Source: Lunularia cruciata (taxonomy: Eukaryota > Streptophyta > Marchantiopsida > Lunulariales > Lunulariaceae). From it: a stretch of DNA of 64,000 bases. Below are positions 38,775-39,720 of the stretch, piece after piece. Position 1 is the first letter of the stretch. Each line of letters starts with the position of its first letter. Location: NCBI GenBank assembly GCA_948567375.1, contig OX419757.1, positions 50,031,665-50,095,664 of the forward strand. The letters run 5' to 3'. Below the pieces are notes generated by a model that saw only the letters and a program-made list of their open reading frames with translations, did not search any database and was not told where the DNA came from. The position numbers and the translations under genes were made by a program.

Positions 38775-39720
38775 GATATATATCTATTGGAGTTGTTTGG
38801 TATGATTAGCATTGGACTAGGTGCAGTATTACAAGTGAGTATACAAGTATAGAGGTACTTGTATGTGGAGAGAGATGAGATTGCTAGGTGAGTCTCTCTA
38901 TATCATGTTACACACTTTGCCTATTGGTATCCAAGTTATTACCGATGTCAACAGTCAGAGGTTACCAGAAAGTCCTACCAACAGACATTTCCTTGTTGGG
39001 GTGCATGATCTAGAGAGATATGGACCTATTCACTTGGTGATTTCTGGATGGCCATGTTAGGGACATACACATGTTGGTGGAGGTTTGGGTCTTCAAGATC
39101 CTAGTTCTGGTGTGTTTTGGGAGATGTTACGGATACTACGACATCTCCAATTTCATCAGTCTATTTCTCCAGCTTACTTTTTGGAGAACGTTCCTTTGAT
39201 AGGTGATTCTCACACCAAAGTGGTGGTGAGTACACATCAGGTCCATTTTTGGATGGGACCTACTATGTTTTTTGATGCAACTTGAGTGGGATCACGGGCT
39301 CATCATCTTTGTCTTTGGTGGACAAACCTTTTATAGTGTGCTTATGATGGGATTCAGCGACTTGACCACATCCTTGTTGATGATATCTTGGATGTTGGGT
39401 GTCAAACAGTGGTAGTGGCTGATAGGTCACCTATGGTAGTGGTGAACCTAGTTGGACAGCCTAGAGCCGCATTTCTCATACTCATGAGTTTCCTAAGCTC
39501 TCATGCTTTTTGAGAGGGAGTACCTGGACTTGTTTGGGATTCATAGTTACAGTAGTTGGTGGAGCCCAATGCTGATGAGAGAGAGCGGGTGATGGGTTTT
39601 CACACCGGTATTACAGATGTTCCAGCAATGTCAGAGGCATCCAAGCGTCAGGTGTTAGGTCTGGCTATGGACCTAAATTGTTTGACTTGGATTGTGAGCC
39701 TTTGGCTTGGCAAAGCAGCA
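38775..39720 (+). pseudogene. Cytosine-5 DNA methyltransferase-like domain captured by the gypsy element
   Basis: Motifs in order: motif I, LELFGMISIGLGAVL, at about 38781-38835, then after a stop RYLYVERDEIAR (38853-38888), which fits the region that binds the S-adenosylmethionine ribose; motif IV, VISGWPC, with the catalytic Pro-Cys at 39052-39057; LGLQDPSSGVFWEMLRIL; motif VI, FLENV, with Glu-Asn-Val at 39184-39192; then VGSRAHHL (from about 39286) and, further on, MGFHTGITD, resembling motifs VIII-IX of DRM/DNMT3-like enzymes. Such enzymes transfer a methyl group to C5 of cytosine in DNA. In-frame stops at 38850, 39058 (directly after the catalytic Cys), 39283 and beyond make this copy non-functional. 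It lies between protease and reverse transcriptase, inside the polyprotein region. Confidence 0.82.

Follow-up and report, generated by a model that had tools for sequence, protein, structure and literature searches.

Because plants silence transposons through DNA methylation, the retention of a DNA methyltransferase by one of these elements is unexpected. A domain of this type was predicted between the protease and the reverse transcriptase (RT) of a Gypsy polyprotein in a 64,000-nucleotide stretch of the Lunularia cruciata genome (contig OX419757.1, positions 50,031,665 to 50,095,664 of the forward strand; hereafter the window), which raised the questions whether the domain is genuine, whether it belongs to the element, and what it would do there. 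Within the window lies a decayed copy of a Ty3/Gypsy retrotransposon that is present in high numbers and equipped with a DNMT3-type methyltransferase, a UAG stop and a PHD finger. Its domain order is Gag, protease and methyltransferase, then the UAG, followed by RT, RNase H (RH), integrase and PHD finger. All features of the element lie on the plus strand.

The motifs on which the original prediction relied were all located: ELFGMISIGL (frame 38661-38849), RYLYVERDE, ISGWPC, LENV (39181-39192) and VGSRAH (from 39289). Two more, corresponding to motifs IX and X, were identified as ERERVMGF (about 39574-39600) and QVLGLAMDLNCLTWIV (about 39650-39715). The domain with motifs I, II, IV, VI, VIII, IX and X extends from 38781 to 39715 and is decayed, as it contains several in-frame stops (seven when counted in the columns of one sister copy) and one frame change. 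The catalytic cysteine codon of motif IV (39055-39057) is directly followed by the stop TAG (39058-39060), where many copies have CAG or CAA. A profile search with PF00145 recovered a sister copy (3.5e-8), but the window alone gave a weak match, with one of three pieces matched at an E value of 0.029, below the cut-off. As the frame of the window copy is broken and its Pfam match weak, the case for a methyltransferase rests on the sister copies.

To this end, 566 Mb of the same genome were searched (74 contigs, eight of which account for 558 Mb; the window starts at C6:50031665). PF00145 yielded 123 scored matches from 2161 candidates, all above the cut-off and with open frames of up to 1428 amino acids; the motif likeness in the window is therefore not due to chance. 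Among 30 loci fetched from this search, five are other, host-like methyltransferases, which by eye were assigned as DNMT3-like (L001, L004), DRM-like with rearranged motif order (L002, L015) and CMT-like (L003). The motif PCQ was in frame in 13 of the 30, counted on plus-strand readings with minus-strand loci left unreversed. Read on the right strand, sister copies display LLELFGGISTGL, RYLYVERDE, GWPCQGHT, LENVP and VGSRAHRLRLWWTNL, and long frames also ERERAMGF and LGQAMDL. A degenerate 20-base pattern for motif IV, with up to two mismatches and a stop permitted at the glutamine codon, occurred at 5,276 places in the genome (2650 + 2626), compared to six (1 + 5) for the reversed control. If every place were a whole element of 9.6 kb, this would amount to 51 Mb or 9% of the genome, an upper figure since many places are surely fragments. 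Gypsy bursts have been reported for the Lunularia cruciata genome (PMC9985172).

For closer comparison, 20 element copies of the 123 scored were fetched, chosen mainly for long open frames, by which the ratios of nonsynonymous to synonymous substitution (dN/dS) and the stop counts given below are biased low. These copies have the same domain order, with the methyltransferase before RT. In the fullest (L035, L038), open reading frame (ORF) 1 is a single frame of 1428 amino acids containing Gag with two CCHC knuckles, the protease (LLDSGAQP) and the methyltransferase. ORF2 follows the stop directly in the same phase (1037 amino acids; L039, L040) and contains RT, RH, integrase and, at its very end, the PHD finger.

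Both sequence search and fold comparison identified DNMT3 as the nearest solved relative of the enzyme. The identity of a C5-methyltransferase within a Gypsy element thus has the backing of the sister copies, of Pfam and of comparisons with solved structures by both sequence and fold. The order originally assigned was that of the DNMT3/DRM type; open sister copies present motifs I, IV, VI, VIII, IX and X in the canonical order of the unrearranged DNMT3 enzymes, but not the rearranged order of DRM. A Pfam search at E<=0.1 with one ORF1 of 1428 amino acids gave PF00145 only and no regulatory ADD or PWWP domain. In 36 rows of distant relatives, the glutamine following the catalytic cysteine and the asparagine of ENV are invariant, and the cysteine and the glutamate are present in at least 90%.

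Related elements are not confined to Lunularia. A query of 421 amino acids retrieved at least 106 proteins, the named ones being from Marchantia polymorpha, Calypogeia fissa (also a liverwort), Sphagnum species and Riccia sorocarpa, and a search over the whole ORF length retrieved at least 43, including Marchantia proteins of 1278 and 1248 amino acids that, like the Lunularia frame, end between methyltransferase and RT. Elements with the domain ahead of RT hence occur in Lunularia itself, Marchantia, Calypogeia and Sphagnum, which bears out the suggested extension of such a family to a land plant; the refuting outcome named with the original prediction, no profile match or no related element with the motifs at this position, did not occur. 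The integrase end with the PHD finger as query gave at least 114 proteins. The angiosperm matches to this query were rejected as elements, as they are histone demethylases matched through their PHD finger. Angiosperms are not known to have DNMT3-like loci. Among 151 proteins (P0107-P0257), RT, integrase and PHD finger occur together in 90, of which 76 also possess the methyltransferase, and the order RT-RH-methyltransferase-integrase-PHD is found in 73 of the 151; in distant metagenome polyproteins it lies in a single frame. When restricted to the polyproteins found only via the integrase end and PHD query, 66 of 80 have the methyltransferase. The former proportion is biased because many of the 43 whole-ORF rows were found by methyltransferase likeness; the seed behind the latter was itself a methyltransferase-bearing protein. 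Algal proteins with the enzyme come from Pleodorina starrii, Chlamydomonas eustigma, Tetrabaena socialis, Haematococcus lacustris, a source labelled Chrzof1 and Cymbomonas tetramitiformis, a prasinophyte-grade chlorophyte. No match named Klebsormidium was among those listed in the protein searches, in which some matches carry no species name, and a search of viral_contigs with Marchantia Mp_4g09160 gave three pattern matches and none confirmed.

In a tree of motifs I-V, all 26 retrotransposon enzymes were separated from host DNMT3 (L001), host DRM (L002, L015), human DNMT3A and two bacterial-type enzymes, with an approximate likelihood-ratio test (aLRT) support of 75 and an ultrafast bootstrap (UFBoot) of 94. 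The CMT-like L003 was dropped from this tree as too short and the DNMT3-like L004 left out; P0146 and P0149, the two most divergent rows, are placed with weak support (P0149: 25/53). The retrotransposon enzymes share a 21-column insertion between motifs II and III, in P0149 only in part, which the host DNMT3 and DRM loci lack. Based on the tree separation and this insertion, recent capture from a host DNMT3 gene was rejected as the simplest reading. Distances of methyltransferase and RT-RH across 79 elements are correlated (r 0.69; none of 2000 permutations as high). The six of them in which the enzyme precedes RT group as a clade in the RT-RH tree (0.997); in the enzyme tree they do so as well, but with weak support (0.48). 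Our reading is that the methyltransferase was probably captured once, long ago, and has since shared its history with RT, and that it may have changed place once, between a position ahead of RT, as in bryophytes and four other cases, and one between RH and integrase, as in algae and metagenomes.

Some relatives displayed further peculiarities. In two algal-type relatives, P0128 (residues ~1700-1991) and P0145 (C-terminus), the PHD finger is followed by a long tail with the motifs DPW/DPWAG, TSPH/TAPP and GHYY/GSFI, as judged by eye; Pfam gave no match on the two tails, which might represent a second methyltransferase-like domain. A G-patch domain occurs in P0136 (residues 404-438) and, as PF01585, in P0161, P0167, P0207 and P0234, and both chromodomain (PF00385) and PHD finger are listed for P0193 and P0235. 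For P0257, a Gypsy-like polyprotein with PHD finger, a thymidylate-kinase-type domain (PF01712) is listed. Two Marchantia models annotated as ordinary genes are pieces of this type of element: P0045 (Mp_7g09570), with a methyltransferase fragment, integrase end and PHD finger, and P0083 (Mp_1g20900), with methyltransferase and RT. Finally, Calypogeia has in P0080 another, only distantly related (about 42% identical) retrotransposon methyltransferase, which has the motif IV WECQ and groups with an algal-type enzyme in the tree; this one liverwort may therefore harbor two lineages of methyltransferase elements.

The predicted location inside the Gypsy polyprotein, between protease and RT, is correct as to position, but a fixed UAG divides the domain from the RT frame. 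In the window this stop reads UAG-CAG-CCA (40037-40045). UAG-CAG separates the frames in the window as well as in each of the 20 fetched copies; the following codon fits YYA in the window and 19 of the copies, the exception being L043 with CTT. Downstream of the UAG, the RT frame is in phase and open. The exact 24-base context occurred at 898 places in the genome with TAG and at two with CAG, and the UAG is hence a fixed trait; its origin by decay of a CAG codon after insertion was ruled out by the same count. UAG followed by CAR-YYA is the type I readthrough signal of tobacco mosaic virus (TMV), a consensus stated to be essential for readthrough in this virus, for which a transient plant reporter gave 32% readthrough and stable plants 6-10% (PMC2754532). 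By our own arithmetic, assuming equal bases, the CAR-YYA hexamer is expected by chance once per 512 stops. Such a context suggests that the methyltransferase would be made at the level of Gag, and RT, integrase and PHD finger at a fraction of that level.

The PHD finger was recognized by PF00628 in three copies (2.2e-10, 7.4e-10 and 2.2e-10) with the zinc-ligand pattern present. Among its best solved-structure matches are the PHD fingers of CHD4, KMT2D, KMT2C, DPF2 and KDM5B; by this likeness it is of the histone-reading kind and would likely steer integration toward particular chromatin. No publication on PHD fingers in Gypsy elements was found in the open-access literature. In the window, the finger (RCMLCGSSGG...WHMAC...WLCPRC; 42982-43129) was assigned by eye and is broken by an insertion.

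Between species, the methyltransferase is the best-conserved part of ORF1. Identity to Marchantia Mp_4g09160 is 72% for the methyltransferase, 65% for Gag, 56% for the linker, 52% for the protease and 38% for the tail, and identity to the distant P0119 is 52% for the methyltransferase and 29-36% for the other parts. That a transposon keeps a methyltransferase in this manner is contrary to expectation. Within the genome, dN/dS (ratio of means) was 0.38 for the methyltransferase (median 0.33 over 95 pairs with dS>0.05 from 19 copies without indels), 0.38 for Gag, 0.47 for the protease, 0.22 for RT-RH, 0.56 for the integrase, 0.39 for the integrase end and 0.47 for the PHD finger.

The ends of the element are organized as split repeats in the layout B-body-A-GC-B-A, with B alone at the 5' end and A-GC-B-A at the 3' end, which rules out a plain pair of like long terminal repeats (LTRs) at both ends. 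Comparison with sister copies places the window element at 34301-43942, from TGTCATGC to CGCACAACA. Block B1 (34301-34745) has no adjoining A block and is 88.5% identical to B2 (43397-43836) over 445 columns; A1 (43300-43394) follows a purine-rich tract (43288-43299) with a presumed role, and A2 (43837-43942) forms the 3' end. All three joints are present in the window and, among the 20 copies, B1 in 18, A1-GC-B2 in 17 and B2-A2 in 16. The A-GC-B joint reads exactly GACAGCTGTC in 13 of the 17, and is decayed in the window (43390-43403). Perfect 4-bp target duplications flank all four copies in which both ends were read (L036, L037, L044 and L038, the latter shortened on its 5' side); that of the window is imperfect (GCAA/GAAA, three of four bases the same by eye). 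The integrated form would correspond to a two-LTR circle (LTR = A-GC-B) that was opened at a palindrome within one LTR. In L034, five additional bases (CATCA; offset 9766) are inserted at the B-A joint; they are like those found behind the 5' B1, and the arrangement resembles an imprecise circle junction.

The repeats also differ in a pattern that would fit methylation. In the 16 copies that were compared along with the window (L031, L038, L047 and L050 yielded no repeat pair), B1 and B2 diverge by 0.25-3.4%, apart from L039 with 9.4%; the window pair diverges by 10.5%. C/T or G/A exchanges make up 158 of the 192 differences. Per site, C/T differences amount to 0.126 in CG, 0.064 in CHG and 0.021 in CHH, the direction C to T being assumed from the pairs. 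For CpG, the observed/expected ratio stands at 0.70 for window sequence outside the element, 0.46-0.51 for four sister stretches and 0.29 for the window element itself. Silenced copies are thus probably subject to CG and CHG methylation by the host.

Taken together, we slightly favor a self-marking element, in which a DNMT3-type writer made with Gag would methylate the element's own new DNA while a PHD reader on the integrase would steer integration. According to this model, the UAG would be read through at some percent, resulting in many Gag-protease-methyltransferase and few RT-integrase-PHD molecules in the particle. The enzyme would be active and CG-specific, by analogy with the retrotransposon enzyme of Symbiodinium (PMC5890265), and would methylate the new DNA de novo. 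The methylated cDNA might pass as host-like or enter methylated chromatin, in which an insertion causes little damage, with the PHD finger picking the chromatin of landing; afterwards, host CG and CHG methylation would maintain and decay the copies. In a wider and more tentative form, to which we give slightly less than even weight, these elements would constitute a Gypsy lineage found across green plants, from prasinophyte and volvocine algae to bryophytes, with a methylation writer expressed ahead of a leaky stop, an integrase-fused histone reader and a circle-like intermediate, and this parasite would own most of the cytosine-methyltransferase sequences here. If true, methyltransferase genes have spread to thousands of sites in Lunularia, far outnumbering those of the host. 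From the PHD finger it is predicted that the element chooses the chromatin into which it integrates, and from the TMV-type stop that methyltransferase and RT are made in a set ratio; Marchantia polymorpha provides a model liverwort in which self-methylation of a retrotransposon is directly testable.

Several points weigh against self-marking. Readthrough is deduced from the sequence context of the stop. The dN/dS of the methyltransferase indicates weaker constraint than that of RT-RH and than the Ka/Ks below 0.2 reported for the enzyme of the Klebsormidium element (PMC5890265). The repeat differences in CG, CHG and CHH look like the outcome of ordinary host methylation and would need no enzyme of the element. 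Ten of the 20 fetched copies have at least one stop in the methyltransferase although chosen for long frames, and most copies, including that of the window, may be dead. Furthermore, 14 of the 90 PHD-bearing polyproteins show no methyltransferase, so that the domain is dispensable for some. Broken copies, these 14 polyproteins and the only moderately low dN/dS within the genome would fit a functionless passenger that has been drifting since one old capture. However, the enzyme is better conserved between species than any other part of ORF1, equals Gag in dN/dS, retains its catalytic residues in distant relatives and tracks the history of RT, and we lend very little credence to a passenger. From the weak window match alone it could be argued that an exon of a host methyltransferase, or an accidental resemblance, happens to lie beside a Gypsy element. 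This was ruled out by the same domain at the same place in sister copies and in Marchantia, Calypogeia and Sphagnum elements; moreover, the DNMT3 and DRM loci of the host are distinct from the element's enzyme and do not have the 21-column insertion, leaving this explanation practically negligible.

The remaining alternatives concern the stop and the target of the enzyme. The UAG could be a true end, with the RT frame expressed by re-initiation, from a separate RNA or after splicing, and the TMV-like context a relic or chance. The Marchantia models P0113, P0115 and P0118 do join methyltransferase and RT frames, presumably through predicted introns; against this stand the excess of UAG over CAG places, the open, in-phase RT frame and the match of a one-in-512 hexamer to the TMV consensus (PMC2754532), so that we regard a true end as unlikely, though not far-fetched. 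The enzyme might instead act on the host, disturbing or saturating its methylation, with blunted silencing or a broadly methylated genome as the outcome, as raised for Symbiodinium in the discussion of an earlier study (PMC5890265). The thousands of catalytic-motif places, set against the few host-like loci of DNMT3, DRM and CMT type that ranked among the best matches, would suit such an effect, which we nevertheless consider distinctly unlikely: the repeats still exhibit plant-type differences (CG>CHG>CHH), host-type methylation thus appearing to act on the element, and the methylome of Klebsormidium is ordinary despite its carrying such elements (PMC5890265). A role in methylating element RNA or tRNA rather than DNA appears very improbable. 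Such a target would agree with the position of the enzyme next to Gag, the RNA-binding part, and RNA methylation was proposed for a LINE-type enzyme that failed on DNA (PMC5890265), but fold and sequence are nearest to DNMT3, a DNA enzyme, and the DIRS-type retrotransposon enzyme methylates CG in DNA (PMC5890265).

The remaining parts of the window element conform to the order protease-RT-RH-integrase of Ty3/Gypsy. A Gag zinc knuckle, CEHCHRFGHTSDRC (37117-37158, in frame 37069-37365), recurs at residue 443 of the L038 ORF1. The protease region (approximately 37950-38500, active-site aspartate codon 38076-38078) was assigned by the sister-copy pattern; RVLLDSGAQP is present in 15 of the 16 sister copies in which the pattern was found, out of 20 inspected. 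The RVT_1-matched part of RT is at 40484-40876 (PF00078, 5.8e-27, in frame 40460-41134), and RNase H occupies an open frame at 41147-41434, with PF17917 matched in a sister frame. Part of the integrase, H2C2 and rve core, lies at 41951-42232 (frame 41948-42238); its matches to PF00665 (1.1e-5) and PF17921 (0.0011) are below the curated cut-offs, while sister copies reached 1.2e-12 and 2.6e-18. Outside the element, the window contains an open GRAS-family gene (5762-7084, plus strand; PF03514, 9e-125), a PPR protein gene with a long single frame of 947 amino acids (58315-61158, minus strand), a tandem repeat of three copies of ~140 bases that are 94-96% alike (30781-31197), and a retroviral-polymerase SH3-like fragment (45511-45954, plus strand; PF25597, 2.5e-13) that probably stems from a Copia-type element adjoining the Gypsy one.

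The background given with the original prediction, that methyltransferase-bearing retrotransposons exist in dinoflagellates and charophyte algae, is correct (PMC5890265). Methyltransferase-bearing Gypsy elements are already known from the charophyte Klebsormidium nitens, whose KnitGypsy-Dnmt3 (published in 2018) resembles the Lunularia element in its Gypsy domain composition, in an intronless, unrearranged Dnmt3-type enzyme within the polyprotein and, as far as the legend of Figure 4c allows comparison, in DIRS-like repeats (PMC5890265). A report from 2025, which cites that study, mentions DNMT3s that streptophytes and dinoflagellates have in LTR (written as Copia) and DIRS elements (PMC12344493). 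The present element differs in its land-plant hosts, in the thousands of places that it occupies, in placing the methyltransferase ahead of a fixed UAG in TMV-type context, and in the PHD finger after the integrase; the term PHD is absent from the main text on KnitGypsy-Dnmt3, whose enzyme is also under the stronger constraint given above (PMC5890265). SymbioDIRS-Dnmt3 and SymbioLINE-Dnmt of Symbiodinium are likewise retrotransposon-borne cytosine methyltransferases, the former capable of de novo CG methylation in yeast, but they belong to other retrotransposon classes and hosts, whereas the Lunularia element has a DDE-type integrase domain (PMC5890265). Split direct repeats and an internal joint resembling a circle junction are shared with the DIRS/PAT elements, which use a tyrosine recombinase; in the frames scanned with Pfam no tyrosine recombinase was found, and an rve integrase and 4-bp target duplications are present instead. 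Chromoviruses are Gypsy elements with a chromodomain after the integrase. They similarly end the integrase with a chromatin-reader-like module, but here a PHD finger replaces the chromodomain and a DNA methyltransferase is added. Compared to plant and animal DNMT3, catalytic fold and motif order agree; in contrast to these and to plant DRM, the enzyme has the 21-column insertion, lacks ADD and PWWP and is not rearranged as DRM is. The published Gypsy case came from one alga, and the type now includes land plants and annotated elements of Marchantia polymorpha. As far as our searches of the open-access literature show, the spread across land plants and chlorophytes, the joined PHD finger, the copy number, the placement at Gag level before a TMV-type stop and the domain's change of place are new.
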